A stretch of 64,000 nucleotides of DNA from a virus. Position numbers and translations under genes: made by a program. Numbering within the stretch: position 1 is the first letter of the stretch; every line of letters begins with the position of its first letter. A model generated the notes under the pieces. That model had not been told where the DNA came from, did not search any database, and saw only the letters and a list, made by a program, of their open reading frames with translations. The stretch lies in IMG/VR virus record IMGVR_UViG_3300042894_002308, positions 62,001-126,000 of that record. One strand, given 5' to 3'. Positions 5,409-57,144 of the stretch are shown in pieces.

Positions 5409-5416
5409 TATTTATA
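5409..5416 (-). promoter_or_regulatory. Late promoter TATAAATA
   Basis: An exact TATAAATA on the minus strand, 13 nt before the ATG at 5395. It contains the TAA stop of the upstream fibre gene. GAGAGG lies between it and the ATG, so this case is intermediate between leaderless and leadered. Confidence 0.6.
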
Positions 5417-7376
5417 GCACAGTTGCCATAGCAATTACAAACGCATAATTCACAACACCATCTGCACCGGTGTTACCTTGTGGGCCTGTAGGACCTGTGT
5501 TTCCTTGAATACCAGTGTTTCCTTGAGGACCAATATCCCCCGTAGCACCAGTATTACCAGTTACACCTTGAATACCTTGAGGACCAGTACCACCAGTGTT
5601 ACCAGTTATACCCTGAATACCTTGAGGACCAGTGCCACCAGTGTTACCAGTTATACCTTGAATACCTTGAGGACCAGTACCACCAGTGTTACCAATTACT
5701 CCTTGAATACCTTGAGGACCAGTGCCACCAGTATTTCCTTGAGGACCAGGAACAACTGAATCAGCACCAGTAGCACCAGTGTTTCCTTGAGGACCTGTTG
5801 GACCTGTGTTTCCCTGAGAACCAGTTGGACCTTGAACAGTAGAAGCAGCACCAGTTGCCCCAGTGTTTCCTTGAGGACCTTGTGGTCCAGTTGGACCAGT
5901 TACACCTTGAGGACCTTGAGAACCATTAGTAGTTGGCTGAATCCACTGCGAACTATTGCCATCATCAATATAAACATATTCAATACCAGTATCGGAAGCC
6001 ATCCAACGGTATCCCATTGTAATACCAGGATCTGTTGGTTCTGACAATTGATAGTAGTATGTACTTCCCCCACCACCACCGCCTCCTCCAGAACCACCAA
6101 CAATACTAATATCTACATTTTTTCTTCTTCTGGTGATTGTAATATTGTCACCAATAAAATTAATCGTATTGGGATTACGAATAATTTTATCACCATTCAA
6201 ACTTATATCAACACCACCGCCACCAGCAGGTGTTGTCATTGCACCAATACGATCTATTGCCTTTTGAATATCATCATTTTTAAATGTATTCAGAACATTT
6301 GTAACGTGTTCTGAATGAAATGACAATACTCCATTATCTAATACAAGAGGAAATTCTGCTTCAAGTACTGGAGATTCTCCCGCAGGACCTTGAGGACCTA
6401 CGAGCCCATCTTTGCCTCGTTCGCCCTTTGCACCATTAGAACCCGGAATGCCCACAGGTCCTCGATCACCTTTTTCTCCCTTTTCACCACGAAGACCTTG
6501 CAGACCAATGGAGCCTTGAGGTCCAATCGGACCTTCAGGACCAACTCTACCTTGCTCACCTTGTGCGCCCGGAACACCTTGTGGACCAACCAATCCTTGA
6601 TCGCCTTGATCGCCTTTATCACCCTTGTCTCCTTGAATGCCTTGCTTACCTTGTAGCCCTTGTGCTCCTCGTGCACCGATATCTCCGTTATCACCTTTTG
6701 GACCTTGTGGACCAACTTCTCCTTGAGGACCGATTTCACCTTGTGGACCAACCTCTCCTTGAATACCACGATCTCCACGAAGACCTTGAATTCCTTGCTT
6801 ACCTTGAAGACCTTCATCACCCTTAAAACCTTGAACACCCATAACTGGTGTTGTTTCTTTAACTATAGTTCGTTCTATAATTTCAATCTTGGTCTTTGGT
6901 GCAACTGGCTTTACTGCTGGTAATTTTACAGGTATAACAACTTCTTCAAACAAATTTTTAATCTGATGAGAGTTACCATAAAATTTAATAACTTTGTTTG
7001 TATCTTTTTGAATGAAATAATGCTCACTGATACCGTGACCAAGTTGCATTTTTTCATCATACGGACAAGAAGAAATTTCTTTCAGTACTTGATTCTGTAA
7101 TAAAGAACCAATAGGTCTTTTAACTTTGAAAGAAGTTCCTTGAAGTCCTTCAAAGGTTTGTACTGGAATGAATAATTCTTTAATTTTAGAAGAATTACCT
7201 TCGATTAAATATTCTTCACCATCAGAATTTCTTAGATATAATTGTGATATACCAGACCCAACTCTTATAACTTTTGGATTTGTCAGATATTCGACAATGT
7301 GGTATTCACAGCCTTGCAGCAGTTCTGAGTGCTGTTTTGCCAGTTTTAAAGATGTTTTGTTCTTTCCGAAGAACAT
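5412..7376 (-). CDS. Collagen-like tail fibre protein with duplicated N-terminal domain
   Basis: 654 aa. Residues 1-150 hold two copies of a small domain: GSGISQLYL...[11 protein letters not shown] and GHGISEHYF...[12 protein letters not shown] long Gly-X-Y tract follows at about 178-340, rich in GEKGDRG and GPQG triplets. A globular region runs from 340 to 480 and contains SDTGIEYVY and QWIQ. A second Gly-X-Y tract at 480-640 includes a 15-residue repeat present four times. The protein ends in a short hydrophobic tail, [14 protein letters not shown], rather than a folded tip. Collagen-like tracts in phage fibres form trimeric stalks (family knowledge). The start at 7376 has no Shine-Dalgarno; a late-type element lies 6 nt upstream. 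Confidence 0.85.
5551..5730 (-). repeat. 45-bp tandem repeat, four copies, in a collagen-like gene
   Basis: Four in-frame units start at 5551, 5596, 5641 and 5686, each encoding a variant of [15 protein letters not shown]. The units differ by a few third-position or Ile/Val changes, so they are recent but not identical. They explain the repetitive DNA here; the spacing is codon-periodic with no spacers. Confidence 0.9.
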
Positions 7377-7401: not shown

Positions 7402-10400
7402 TTAGACTGGAATACACTCAAAGTAAACACCATTATATGTAAATCCTCCACCAGTGCGTATACTACAAGTAATTGGATATAAATCTACACCTTCACCATC
7501 ACATACACTACCATCTCCTAGAGGCATTTGATTTGGATCTGTACTGCATAATGTACTACCAAATGGACCACCACGACCATCATAGGCATTATATGTAGTT
7601 CCACGTATTAACATTGCGAAACCAGCAACATCACGATCTACACCGCCTAAACTTATTGCACTATAAAATGCCGGTGAATTTAATATAGTCAAGCCACTAT
7701 AGGATCCTTTAAACAGACCAGGATCTATAGAGGCTAGACTTCCATATAGAGAATAATTTAACCACCAAGTACCTACACCTAGAGTAGTACCTCCAACATC
7801 ATCACCACTTAAACTTAATTGAATTAATTCCCCAACAACTGCAGTTGCACCTTGAATCTGTAATGTACCGTTTCCAGGTATAACAACACTTGAAGACGGG
7901 TATCCATTAGAGGATGTTTTTCTTGTCTGCCATATACTAGGTGTAGACAAGAATGTGCGTGGTGTTGGAATCCATCTATCAGATCCATTGTATGAAATTA
8001 TATCACCAGCACACAATCCGTTTGCTGGAAGATTTGGATATAATCTAGAAATTATTGCAGAACCATCTGTAACACCACTACTTCCACTACTACTACCACT
8101 AATTGTAATACTGTTCGATGTAGCACAAGTACCGATGGTAATATTTGATCCGGCAAGTAAAGTAACATCCCCTGTCAGTCCACCAAAACCAGTTGTAAAT
8201 AAACCATGAACACCTTGATTTGTAATAGTAACATTACCTGTTGCACCTGATACTGAAATAGCGGTTCCAGCAACAGCCGTGCATACACCTTGAAGTGCTC
8301 CAGTTTTTCCATTAAAACTTCTTACAACAGTACCAAGATAAGTTCCACTTACATTAAGATTATTACCACCAGTAACTGTGAGAGTTCCATATGCAATTGT
8401 ACTAACACCTTGACTAGCACCACCAATACTTAAGACAGCATCTTTTAAATTAACATTTGAGGTAACAAAACTACCAACGTGTGATAAACCTATACTTTTA
8501 GTAGTATCTGTTGATGTAATGCTATTAATATCAGTAAGATTAGATGATAAACTTAATGTTAAATTTCCTGTTCCTCCAACTGGACTTACATTAATTTGTG
8601 ATGATGTTCCAATTATTTGACGAACACCAGTATTAGTAATAGTTACATTGCCAGTAGAACCTGTTAAGAAAATTCCAGCTCCTGAGTTAACTGATCCAAC
8701 ACCTACTACATTACCGGTAAGACCATTAAATCTGTTGACAAGATTTCCTTCAATATCATTTACAGATCCATCAAAAGATATATTAGAAGCATACACATTG
8801 ATAGAATTAGTTTGATTTGTTATCTCTATTCCGGGTACTGTTTTACTTACACCAGATCCAACTTTTGTAACGTTACTACCATAAAGAGTTAATGCATCAT
8901 TAGTTGTATTGATAAAAATTCCACTTGCATTACACACACCCGTAATATAAACAGTATCATCAAGAATAATTGGACCACATGAGCCACATGCTCCAGTAGA
9001 TGAGAAGATTATAGAATTACCCGATAAAGTAATTCCCATATTATTTCCAGCAGCTAAAGTTACTGCACCTGTGAGACCATTAATAAAATTAATAATATTA
9101 GGTGCACTTATATTTCCGGAGAATGATGCACCAGATGCAGAAATACCTCTACTTGCACTCACAAGACCTGTAAAAGATGCTGTAATACCTTTCAGTGTTC
9201 CTGATAAAGTAACACCACGACTTGCAGAAATACCTGCATTAAACGTATTAAGTCCTGTGAAGTTTGCAGTAACACCTGTAAGAGTTCCACTAAGATTTGC
9301 ACTGGCACCATTGATTAACAGGCTATTAAAATTTACATCGCTTGTGGACACTTCAAGATAAGATCCAGTTTGATCGCCTATTTGTACACTACTGGTGCTA
9401 TCAAGTACTATAAGAGCACCAGTAGTAAGAGATATATTATTTGCAGAAGGGGTACTTAATACAATTGCACCATCACTATTAATGTTTAAACCCTCAGTCA
9501 CAATGTTTATCGGATTACCACCAATATAATTACTAATATTATCTGTGTAAATAGTACCAGTAGAATTGATAGTTAGTGCTGTTAAACTTCCTGTTGTTGT
9601 AACCATTGACCCTACACTAGGGGTATAAACCCATCTTGGTACAGAAGTATCAACATAAATTCCTGTGTTACCAGTTCCAGTCGCAAGAGCCAAACAGAAA
9701 CTTCCAGTTCCTGCTTCAGTAATTTGAATTCTAGACGTGCTTCCCGACGTTAATCCACTTGCATTACCTGTGAGATTTGTTCCGAGACCAGAGAAGCCAA
9801 CCGTAGAGGATACAAGTCCTGTGAATTCAGCACCACCTAATGTTACACCTGTTACTGCACCTGTTAGTCCGTTGAAAGTAATAACATAAGGACCACTTAT
9901 ACCATCGGCACCAGTATTACCAGGGGCACCAGTAGCACCAGTATTTCCTGCTGATCCAGTAGGACCTTGTATACCAGGATCACCTTTATCACCCTTTTGT
10001 CCAACAGCACCATTAAGATTTACATTCCAGTCATTAAAATATCCTGTACCTGTAACAGAATTAACGGTAAGAGATAAGTTTATACCAGTATAACCATTAA
10101 CTGTTGCAATAAAATATTGAGATAAACCGGCTGCAACTAAAACAGTTTGAACTTTAGTATAGGCTAATCCAGTTGGTATGGTTAACGTGACACCAGAACC
10201 AGAACAAATACCTGATAGGGTTATACCTACTTTGCTTGTGGTACTATAAATATCCCCAGCCAGACCAGTAGCACCAGTATTTCCAGTAGCACCATTGGCA
10301 CCAGTAGCACCCGTATTTCCTTGAGGACCAGTAGCACCCGTATTTCCTTGAGCACCCTGTGCTCCGGGATCACCTTGTTCACCGGGATTACCTTTTGCAC

Positions 10401-10554
10401 CAATATTACCTTGAACTCCCTGAGGACCTGTAGGTCCTGGAGGTCCTGTAGGACCCATTAAAGTACTACCAGGTCCAACGGGTCCTTGTGGTCCGGTGGT
10501 TCCAGGAACTCCATAAGGAGTTCCGTAAACTATTACATTAATGATGTCTTCCAT
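7402..10554 (-). CDS. Collagen-like long tail fibre protein
   Basis: 1050 aa. The N-terminus (VIVYGTPYGVPG) matches the N-terminus of the next fibre ([12 protein letters not shown]) and is probably a shared virion anchor. Gly-X-Y tracts cover about residues 20-100 and 185-215. Between them (about 98-184) is a module beginning GDIYSTTS and ending NLNGAVGQ that also occurs in the 1408-aa fibre. Residues 220-870 form a repetitive beta stem with many NGLTG and SGxxxG motifs. The last 180 residues form a globular tip with several Trp, Tyr and Cys residues, a candidate receptor-binding part. The start at 10554 has no Shine-Dalgarno; TATAAATA ends 9 nt upstream. Confidence 0.85.
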   Translation of the reverse strand: MEDIINVIVYGTPYGVPGTTGPQGPVGPGSTLMGPTGPPGPTGPQGVQGNIGAKGNPGEQGDPGAQGAQGNTGATGPQGNTGATGANGATGNTGATGLAGDIYSTTSKVGITLSGICSGSGVTLTIPTGLAYTKVQTVLVAAGLSQYFIATVNGYTGINLSLTVNSVTGTGYFNDWNVNLNGAVGQKGDKGDPGIQGPTGSAGNTGATGAPGNTGADGISGPYVITFNGLTGAVTGVTLGGAEFTGLVSSTVGFSGLGTNLTGNASGLTSGSTSRIQITEAGTGSFCLALATGTGNTGIYVDTSVPRWVYTPSVGSMVTTTGSLTALTINSTGTIYTDNISNYIGGNPINIVTEGLNINSDGAIVLSTPSANNISLTTGALIVLDSTSSVQIGDQTGSYLEVSTSDVNFNSLLINGASANLSGTLTGVTANFTGLNTFNAGISASRGVTLSGTLKGITASFTGLVSASRGISASGASFSGNISAPNIINFINGLTGAVTLAAGNNMGITLSGNSIIFSSTGACGSCGPIILDDTVYITGVCNASGIFINTTNDALTLYGSNVTKVGSGVSKTVPGIEITNQTNSINVYASNISFDGSVNDIEGNLVNRFNGLTGNVVGVGSVNSGAGIFLTGSTGNVTITNTGVRQIIGTSSQINVSPVGGTGNLTLSLSSNLTDINSITSTDTTKSIGLSHVGSFVTSNVNLKDAVLSIGGASQGVSTIAYGTLTVTGGNNLNVSGTYLGTVVRSFNGKTGALQGVCTAVAGTAISVSGATGNVTITNQGVHGLFTTGFGGLTGDVTLLAGSNITIGTCATSNSITISGSSSGSSGVTDGSAIISRLYPNLPANGLCAGDIISYNGSDRWIPTPRTFLSTPSIWQTRKTSSNGYPSSSVVIPGNGTLQIQGATAVVGELIQLSLSGDDVGGTTLGVGTWWLNYSLYGSLASIDPGLFKGSYSGLTILNSPAFYSAISLGGVDRDVAGFAMLIRGTTYNAYDGRGGPFGSTLCSTDPNQMPLGDGSVCDGEGVDLYPITCSIRTGGGFTYNGVYFECIPV

Positions 10555-54979: not shown

Positions 54980-55648
54980 ATGGATCCAAATATTTTACAA
55001 TCAATAGAACAATTAATGCCTCGTTATGAGGCTGAACTTCCTTTTAGTAAAGAAAAGGTTACATTTACACCGTTTAGAGTTAAAGATGCAAAAAATATAT
55101 CAATAATTCTTCAAGAAGAAAATAAAAAATTATCTTTAATAGCATTAGTTGAAATTTTAAAAACAAATACACATGGTGTGAATGTATTAGATTTATGTCT
55201 TGCAGATGCTGAATATCTATTTTTACAAATAAGATCAAAAAGTGTTGATGAACGATTAAACCTAATACGAAACGAAGAAAAACTTCAACTGTATATTTTT
55301 GATATTAAACATAAAAATGAGATAGTAACAGAAACTATAAACATTTCACCTGAAATAAATTTAGTATTAGAAACACCAACAATCAATAATTTAATTAAAC
55401 TAAACTCTTTAGAAAAAGAAGACTTAATAAAAAGTTGTATTAAAAAGATTGTTGTAAAAAACGAAATATATTATCCAAACAAATTTCTTCCAAAAGATTT
55501 AAAAGATATATTAGATAATCTTCCAATGTCTATGCTTGGTAAATTTGAAAACTTTTTATCAAATCAACCAGAACTTTATGCTATATTGGAAACAAAAGAA
55601 GGTCCAAAGGAGGTCAGCGGGTTTTTAAATTTTTTTATCTTTCGGTAA
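54980..55648 (+). CDS. 26: Baseplate hub assembly protein gp26 (T4_baseplate family), zero-frame product
   Basis: 222 aa. LPFSKEKVTFTPFRVKDAKN at residues 20-39, then VNVLDLCLADAEYLFLQIRS near 73-92 matches the T4_baseplate family (gp26-type), in which DxxYLFLxLRxxS is the hallmark. Position before a small TrpTrp-Glu-Arg ORF in the -1 frame suggests that it is a tail-assembly chaperone made in two lengths. The zero frame ends FLNFFIFR. TTTAAATA lies 10 nt before the ATG. Confidence 0.85.
   Translation: MDPNILQSIEQLMPRYEAELPFSKEKVTFTPFRVKDAKNISIILQEENKKLSLIALVEILKTNTHGVNVLDLCLADAEYLFLQIRSKSVDERLNLIRNEEKLQLYIFDIKHKNEIVTETINISPEINLVLETPTINNLIKLNSLEKEDLIKSCIKKIVVKNEIYYPNKFLPKDLKDILDNLPMSMLGKFENFLSNQPELYAILETKEGPKEVSGFLNFFIFR
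55606..55636 (+). other. Probable programmed -1 ribosomal frameshift site
   Basis: AAAGGAGG (55606-55613), a perfect internal Shine-Dalgarno, is followed after 10 nt by the slippery heptamer T-TTA-AAT (55624-55630) in the zero frame of gp26. T-TTT-TTT (55630-55636) follows directly. The order and spacing match E. coli dnaX, where an internal Shine-Dalgarno 10 nt upstream stimulates -1 slippage. The zero-frame stop follows at 55646. Confidence 0.7.
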
Positions 55649-55830
55649 AGTTTTTTGATTTAAAAGATTATTTTACAACAAACTTTACCTTAATAAATAA
55701 TTTTAATTGGAACCTGTATGATTTAGATAATATGCTTTGGTGGGAACGTGAAATATATGTATCGCTGCTAATAGATTACCAAGAACAAAAAAAATACAAA
55801 GAAACAAATAATAAAATTCAAGGTTTTTAA
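55630..55830 (+). CDS. Frameshift extension of gp26, chaperone C-terminal domain
   Basis: The -1 frame is open from the slippery site to TAA at 55828 and adds 66 residues, giving a fusion of about 283 aa. The extension reads VKFFDLKDYFTTNF, then NFNWNLYDLDNMLWWEREIY and SLLIDYQEQKKYKE. It has no ATG or GTG start after the AAAGGAGG at a usable distance; the first ATG (in DNMLWW) would leave only 32 residues. The WWER-x-x-Y helix is like the small C-terminal domains of tail chaperones. Without frameshifting this 180-nt gap would be unexplained. Confidence 0.7.
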   Translation, partial: FFYLSVKFFDLKDYFTTNFTLINNFNWNLYDLDNMLWWEREIYVSLLIDYQEQKKYKETNNKIQGF

Positions 55831-55833
55831 TAT

Positions 55834-56262
55834 ATGATAGACAATCCAAATGATTTTGTATTAGATATATCTGCTGAACAACAAGCATTTAGCAATTCTA
55901 TTATGTCTTCTTCTGAGCAGATGCAAGAGATACAAAGTAATCCAGATGCTATTCGACTTCCTGATTCAATGTCATATACTCCAGCCAATGTGGATGTTAG
56001 TAATGCCACGACCGCAGAAGCATCAAAAGTTGCTATGGATTTAACTATTAAATTTGATCCAGAAGAACAATATAAAGCGTTAAAGGAAACAGTTGATGGT
56101 ATGCAAAAAGGAATACAGGAACTTGGCAATGAGCAACAGTCTAAATGGATTCCTTTTCCAAAAGCAGTAAACAACTTTGAAGAAAAACCAATATTAGAAC
56201 AAACTAATTTAATTTTTGAAGAAAGACGTTCTAAATTTTCTGAATATCCTCGTTGGGCATAA
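55834..56262 (+). CDS. Virion-assembly-region protein, unknown
   Basis: 142 aa, starting 3 nt after the frameshift extension ends. It is acidic at the N-terminus (MIDNPNDFVLDISAEQQAF), has a coiled-coil-like middle (DPEEQYKALKETVDGMQKGI) and ends FEERRSKFSEYPRWA. No family was recognised. The place after a gp26-type gene suggests a hub or tape-measure-associated factor. A bidirectional terminator follows at once. Confidence 0.65.
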   Translation: MIDNPNDFVLDISAEQQAFSNSIMSSSEQMQEIQSNPDAIRLPDSMSYTPANVDVSNATTAEASKVAMDLTIKFDPEEQYKALKETVDGMQKGIQELGNEQQSKWIPFPKAVNNFEEKPILEQTNLIFEERRSKFSEYPRWA

Positions 56263-56287
56263 AAAAAGCCCCTTGCGGGGCTTTTTT
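56262..56287. terminator. Bidirectional terminator between convergent genes
   Basis: GCCCC/GGGGC with loop TTGC, flanked by A6 and T6 so that the stem extends to 11 bp. It serves the plus-strand gp4-gp26 operon and the minus-strand gp32 gene. Confidence 0.92.
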
Positions 56288-57144
56288 CAGTCATTCTCCA
56301 TTTCGGAGAAGTACTTCAGCGGGTCTTTTTCTTCAACATCATGTTCAGCAAGTGTATCCTTAACATCATCTTCGATGCTATTGGACTCGGTAAACTGAGC
56401 ACGAATATCATCTCCAGTAGCCTTCTTTAGACGAGCCTGAAGTTCTTCATAACTCTTAAACTGACTCTTGTCAGTAAACTCCTTAAGAGAATACTGCTTC
56501 TTCCAAAGCTCTTCTAGCTTCTTGTCATCACCACCAAGAAGTGGTACTGGAGCAGCAAACTCTGAACGATCATAGTTTACGTAACCACCAACATTACGAA
56601 TCTTGATCTTAAAGTCTGCACCAGTCCAGAAGTTAAATGGATCAACTGCAACTTCATCCTTATACTCTGGGTGAGCAAGACTCTGAATCTTTTGAAAGAT
56701 CTTTGTACCATATTGATAAAGGAAGTTCTTTCCCTTGTTTTCTGGATTTGCTGGATCTTCAATAACAAGAATATTAGAGATATAAGTCAACTTGCGCTTA
56801 CGAGTGCGTGCAATATTCTTATCATCTTCAATACCACTATTCCACAGTTCTGTGTTTGCCTGACAGATTGGGCACTTCTCCCCTAGAGTTGTAAGGCAGT
56901 TTTCAAACAGCCACCCACCCTTACCTTTAAATGCGTGACTATAAACTGCTACAAATGGTGTGTCATCTCCCTCAACTTCTGGGAGAAACCGAATTACTGC
57001 ATAGCCGTTGCCAGCCTTGTCAATACCCGGCTTCCACAGCCGATCATCCTTGTAGCTGTCCTTTGAAGACATCTTATCAAGACGTTCCGTTAGAGATGCG
57101 ACTGAGTTCTTACTCTTCTTCTTAAAATCTGAAAAACCTGCCAT
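56287..57144 (-). CDS. 32: Single-stranded DNA-binding protein gp32
   Basis: 285 aa; T4 gp32 is 301 aa. The zinc ligands keep the T4 layout: His70-X12-Cys83-X7-Cys91-X2-Cys94, in YSHAFKGKGGWLFENC and KCPIC. The N-terminal basic LAST-like segment (KKKSKNSVASLTERLDK) and the acidic C-terminal tail (DVEEKDPLKYFSEMEND), which contacts other replication proteins, are both present. GGAAAG precedes the ATG. The leader carries a hairpin, as expected for a protein that represses its own mRNA in T4. Confidence 0.95.
   Translation of the reverse strand: MAGFSDFKKKSKNSVASLTERLDKMSSKDSYKDDRLWKPGIDKAGNGYAVIRFLPEVEGDDTPFVAVYSHAFKGKGGWLFENCLTTLGEKCPICQANTELWNSGIEDDKNIARTRKRKLTYISNILVIEDPANPENKGKNFLYQYGTKIFQKIQSLAHPEYKDEVAVDPFNFWTGADFKIKIRNVGGYVNYDRSEFAAPVPLLGGDDKKLEELWKKQYSLKEFTDKSQFKSYEELQARLKKATGDDIRAQFTESNSIEDDVKDTLAEHDVEEKDPLKYFSEMEND

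Follow-up and report, generated by a model that had tools for sequence, protein, structure and literature searches.

A probable programmed -1 frameshift in gp26 of an uncultured T4-like phage and the sequence elements that surround its slip site

Introduction

Most long-tailed phages need a short and a long tail-assembly chaperone (TAC). Phage lambda makes gpG and gpGT in the same short/long arrangement as the 222-aa and 283-aa products discussed below, a likeness of layout; the slippery heptamer of lambda G/GT differs from the T-TTT-TTT found here. The E. coli dnaX gene, whose protein is unrelated to the chaperone, has the same three parts as our locus (a Shine-Dalgarno (SD) sequence upstream, an X-XXY-YYZ heptamer and a stem-loop downstream). 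Its heptamer is A-AAA-AAG with the SD sequence about 10 nt away, compared with T-TTT-TTT and 15-16 nt here. Among T4-like phages, Vladimirov and colleagues reportedly found in 2022 that frameshifting is apparently conserved in several groups, while T4 itself is said to use genes 26 and 51.

The tail-assembly chaperones of T4-like phages were identified as gp26/gp51 by Vladimirov, Gautam and Davidson (Virology 2022, 566:9-15), as cited in PMC10885494 and PMC12846349. In the account given by the PRFect paper, some T4-like phages have one short and one fused long gene (PMC10885494), and the Adele paper credits the same work with poly-T slippery signals in the TAC-N genes of T4-like phages (PMC12846349). 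A preliminary description of the present locus had held that gp26-type genes are not usually described with a frameshift; going by these two accounts, poly-T sites in T4-like phages had already been published. This kind of frameshift is already known in T4-like phages; the window adds a further, well-marked case with an unusually complete signal, and the novelty of our work is limited to this case and a fuller description of its stimulators.

Here we describe at the sequence level the probable frameshift by which one group of uncultured T4-like phages would make its long tail chaperone. The window, i.e., the whole stretch of viral DNA analysed, is 64,000 nt long (64 kb). We conclude that it very likely contains a programmed -1 frameshift in gp26 that gives rise to a TAC-N/TAC-NC pair. 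The preliminary description had proposed a -1 frameshift making a chaperone fusion, which is strongly supported by the comparative evidence given below. The two domains and the combination of a short form with a long fusion are the same as in the T4-like TACs of Vladimirov et al. (2022), as far as the citing papers relate them. In the window clade the heptamer is accompanied by a strong SD sequence 15 nt away and by a hairpin that is conserved in the core of the clade.

Results and Discussion

The two reading frames

The coding features of the locus are as follows.
54980..55648, + strand: gp26 homologue of 222 aa, the putative short tail-assembly chaperone (TAC-N); identified by PF12322, phrog_150, profile comparison with T4 gp26, and AlphaFold2
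55646..55648, + strand: TAA, zero-frame stop of gp26
55636..55830, + strand: -1 frame extension, gp51/TAC-C domain, 64 residues after FF; identified by phrog_634, alignment with T4 gp51, and dN/dS

The gene at 54980-55648 matched the Pfam family T4_baseplate (PF12322) at 2.1e-22, above the curated cut-off, and phrog_150 at 2.3e-22. Profile comparison with T4 gp26 gave 97.9% (E 4e-13). For structure prediction by AlphaFold2 the N and C domains were folded apart. The N-domain model was confident (pLDDT 89) and found 54 matches in BFVD (E up to 0.001) to predicted T4-type baseplate hub proteins; besides many T4-type hub proteins, the matches included a single 'tape measure chaperone' of phage Moon (1.8e-4). 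Foldseek comparison of this model with the PDB gave no significant match, the HK97 tail-assembly chaperone 2ob9 having the top probability among the 50 PDB matches listed at a level that is at best suggestive (0.33, E 1.4). A PDB sequence search with the N domain returned no match. None of the window proteins scanned could be identified as a tape-measure protein.

In the -1 frame, 66 codons (FFYLSVKFF...KIQGF) are open between 55630 and the stop at 55828-55830, and this frame encodes FFYLSVKFFDLKDYFTTNFTLINNFNWNLYDLDNMLWWEREIYVSLLIDYQEQKKYKETNNKIQGF. The preliminary description had called it coding-like, and this is confirmed. It had missed that the ORF belongs to a known protein family: the translation matches phrog_634 (gp51, "baseplate hub assembly catalyst") at 5.6e-16, and hhalign placed it against residues 201-245 at the C-terminal end of T4 gp51 (E 2.5e-5). 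dN/dS in the -1 frame was 0-0.19 where computable, a sign of coding constraint. The AlphaFold2 model of the C domain was all-helical and of lower confidence (pLDDT 74). PDB sequence matches of the C domain were dismissed as chance coiled-coil similarity. The fusion TAC-NC would be 283 aa long and would accompany the 222-aa short form. The 135.8-kb contig to which the window belongs, which may be incomplete, contains one gp26 domain and one gp51 domain; a second copy of either was sought in this contig and none was found, and with a single copy of each domain no separate long gene was seen in it.

Could gp51 be a separate small gene, expressed by translational coupling or re-initiation after gp26? 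The database records of P-SSM2, P-TIM68, Mosig and DLP_6 annotate it as its own CDS, and an ATG overlaps the gp26 stop (CAATGA) in three relatives (L036-L038) and stands directly after the stop in P-SSM2. Within the window, however, no ATG, GTG or TTG precedes the ATG at 55732 in the -1 frame, and this ATG lies 34 codons into the conserved gp51 domain, in agreement with the earlier statement that the frame lacks a start codon of its own near the SD sequence. The SD sequence is too distant from any possible start. A search for homologues in which the small ORF possesses a start codon and an SD sequence of its own, named in the preliminary description as a refuting test, turned up some ATGs at the gp26 stop or directly behind it. 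They are not conserved and lie within conserved -1 sequence, with conserved -1 residues upstream of them, and the heptamer is universal. We consider a separate gp51 gene very unlikely.

In L036, L037 and L038, where the TGA stop overlaps the -1 ATG and the hairpin described below is missing, a re-initiated gp51 product might exist besides the fusion. In the four public records (L001-L004: P-SSM2, DLP_6, Mosig and P-TIM68), the gp51 CDS begins after the gp26 stop, and the conserved -1 residues behind the heptamer are cut off. The separate CDS in these records is probably a widespread annotation error, and the small 'gp51' gene that many cyanophage records list is probably a truncated annotation of the fusion rather than a free-standing gene.

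The proposed slip site

Three overlapping heptamers are found at the end of gp26.
55624..55630, + strand: T-TTA-AAT, zero frame, 10 nt after AAAGGAGG; at most a secondary slip site
55627..55633, + strand: A-AAT-TTT, not conserved and absent from the preliminary description
55630..55636, + strand: T-TTT-TTT, conserved slippery heptamer; at 104/104 loci the FF codons read TTTTTT[T/C]

Relatives were collected by IMG/VR scans at 24-100% identity, and complete junctions were counted at 104 loci, 85 of them distinct. At every one of the 104 loci gp26 ends with two Phe codons, written as zero-frame T-TTT-TTT or T-TTT-TTC, and the gp51 domain follows in the -1 frame. The codon before the two Phe ends in T in all 85 distinct junctions, and the residue that it encodes can be any of seven amino acids (Ser, Asn, Asp, Arg, Thr, Ala or His). 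With the codon usage of the window, and with relatedness ignored, the probability of this outcome is ∼1e-18. The junction is not a chance arrangement, because the -1 frame matches phrog_634 (5.6e-16), AAGGAGGT is single in the window, and the layout recurs in more than 100 related loci.

A single base in a homopolymer separates the two frames, as it would in one gene broken by mutation (a pseudogene) or by a sequencing error, and an error in the T run had been named earlier as a possible refutation. Contigs from three other metagenomes (L007-L009) have a junction identical to that of the window, which speaks against such an error; the same layout at more than 100 loci and strong purifying selection in both frames refute the broken-gene explanation, to which we give practically no weight. 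Seven-T runs can also provoke slippage of RNA polymerase (UUUUUUU, PMC4066793), and the fusion would then be made from a mixed population of mRNAs. This origin appears quite improbable: at most loci (63 of 104) the run stops at six T, with C as the next base, and the conservation of the SD sequence and of the RNA hairpin points to the ribosome.

The preliminary description had placed a zero-frame T-TTA-AAT heptamer before T-TTT-TTT. Both are present, but the conserved slip site is T-TTT-TTT; T-TTA-AAT occurs in few relatives (L007-L013 and L021), apart from L021 the closest ones, and is absent from most others. Slippage mainly at 55624-55630 would use a canonical heptamer at the classical 10-nt distance from the SD sequence, an arrangement shared by those few relatives. 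It is nevertheless an unlikely main site, as T-TTA-AAT is missing in most relatives in which the spacing of SD sequence and T7 run is unchanged (e.g., L014, L016, L030-L040), and the hairpin would then be 13 nt downstream. Slippage at 55624, 55627 or 55630 gives the identical protein ...GFLNFFYLSVK..., so mass spectrometry of a junction peptide cannot locate the slip. In three loci (L052, L089 and L108) a zero-frame stop directly follows the two Phe codons (TTT TTT TAG or TAA), and slippage there would adjoin the stop.

The upstream Shine-Dalgarno-like element

55606..55614, + strand: AAAGGAGGT, putative internal SD-like stimulator, 15 nt before T-TTT-TTT; recognized by its uniqueness, fixed spacing and choice of GAG

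The claim of a perfect SD sequence within the coding sequence, 10 nt before T-TTA-AAT, holds, with AAAGGAGG located at 55606-55613. AAGGAGGT occurs once in the 64-kb window, at this site. The GAGGT core was found at a constant spacing of 15 nt in 17/17 aligned sequences of the window clade, and the full AAGGAGGT in 12 of 16 relatives from this clade. The Glu codon within GAGGT is GAG in all 17 sequences, and GAG makes up 16% of the Glu codons of the window.

The gap between SD sequence and heptamer is about 15-16 nt in the window clade, as against 9-10 nt in the marine/cyanophage group; the window value falls inside the range of 6-17 nt in which stimulatory SD-like sequences were searched in PMC4066793. 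In the marine/cyanophage group the SD-like core lies at a Glu-Gly pair 9-10 nt before the heptamer. There the Gly codon is GGG in 16/18 sequences with Glu GAA and in 6/38 with Glu GAG (Fisher p 2e-7, relatedness ignored), and GGG accounts for 21 of 357 Gly codons in the gp26 bodies of the group. Judged from the codons, this Glu/Gly pattern is what would be expected from selection for AAGGG or GAGG pairing. Four members of the T-TTT-TTT group (L047, L065, L080 and L097) keep the heptamer without an SD-like sequence at 9-10 nt.

The downstream stem-loop

55644..55653, + strand: GGTAAAGTTT, 5' arm, starting 7 nt after the heptamer
55680..55689, + strand: AAACTTTACC, 3' arm; kept by the core of the clade, whereas outlying members have lost it or differ

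A stem-loop 7 nt downstream of T-TTT-TTT had been missed in the preliminary description. It spans 55644-55689 with a 10-bp stem and a folding energy of -13.0 kcal/mol (z -4.1), which was matched by 0/200 shuffles. When the stretch was recoded synonymously with the -1 peptide kept and the codon usage of the window, 8 of 5000 recodings folded as well (p about 0.002). Over 16 clade sequences the mean hairpin z was -3.0, compared with -0.3 for control stretches of gp26. Downstream structure is common in the marine group too, where it is weaker and more variable (mean z -1.8 vs. -0.6 in controls).

The nucleotide sequence over the hairpin is under extra constraint: synonymous divergence between the window and 11 relatives was 0-0.38 within the hairpin, against 0.27-0.99 elsewhere in the C domain. 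In L039, where the window stem is lost, the corresponding values were 0.74 and 0.89; this sequence has another stem (GGTAAGAT...ATCTTACC), which begins almost as far from the heptamer as the window hairpin does. The window hairpin is absent, weak or different in L027, L036, L038, L039 and L040. Outlying members of the clade lack the hairpin, and for this reason RNAalifold over the whole clade returned a different, weak structure (-2.2 kcal/mol). Since the covariation signal is weak, the hairpin is best described, from the sequences at hand, as specific to part of the clade.

Proposed mechanism and relation to phage T4

From these elements we infer ribosomal slippage, its efficiency, and a chaperone role on the tape-measure protein. 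Most ribosomes would read gp26 to its stop and produce the 222-aa TAC-N. A minority would move back one base at T-TTT-TTT (55630-55636), where both Phe-tRNAs can re-pair perfectly, and would continue in the -1 frame to give the 283-aa TAC-NC bearing the gp51 domain (TAC-C). Two elements would promote the slippage: AAGGAGGT, by pairing with 16S rRNA, and the stem-loop that begins 7 nt behind the heptamer. The tape-measure protein would then be covered by the short form in many copies and the long form in few, and tail-tube subunits would be recruited through the C domain, as in the case of lambda gpG/gpGT.

T4 gp26 matches the N domain only and aligns to its end at GLKEFF, whereas T4 gp51 (249 aa) has an N-domain match and a phrog_634 match at its C-terminus. 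T4 gp26 corresponds to the short form of the window, and T4 gp51 to the long form, whose C domain it shares. In T4 the genes 26 and 51 are separate and divergently transcribed, while the window has one gene with a frameshift.

We think it probable that the frameshift signal of the window clade has become a full three-part cassette (strong SD sequence at 15 nt, T7 heptamer and dedicated stem-loop), that relative to the sister marine groups (same heptamer, SD sequence at 9-10 nt, other and more variable structure) the slip site has stayed in place while stimulators were replaced or relocated, and that T4 gave up the site by means of separate genes. These phages would provide a natural series in which to follow the turnover of frameshift stimulators at an unchanging slip site and the origin of the two separate genes of T4.

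Neighbouring sequences in the window

55834-56262, + strand: 142-aa ORF directly after the gp51 domain

This ORF had no significant family match. Between it and the convergent gp32 gene (56287-57144, - strand) lies a perfect GC-rich hairpin (56263-56289) flanked by runs of A and T, and its sequence reads as a two-way terminator. Elsewhere in the window, 5415-7376 and 7405-10554 (- strand) encode large tail-fibre-like proteins with matches to several collagen-like or repetitive tail-fibre families.
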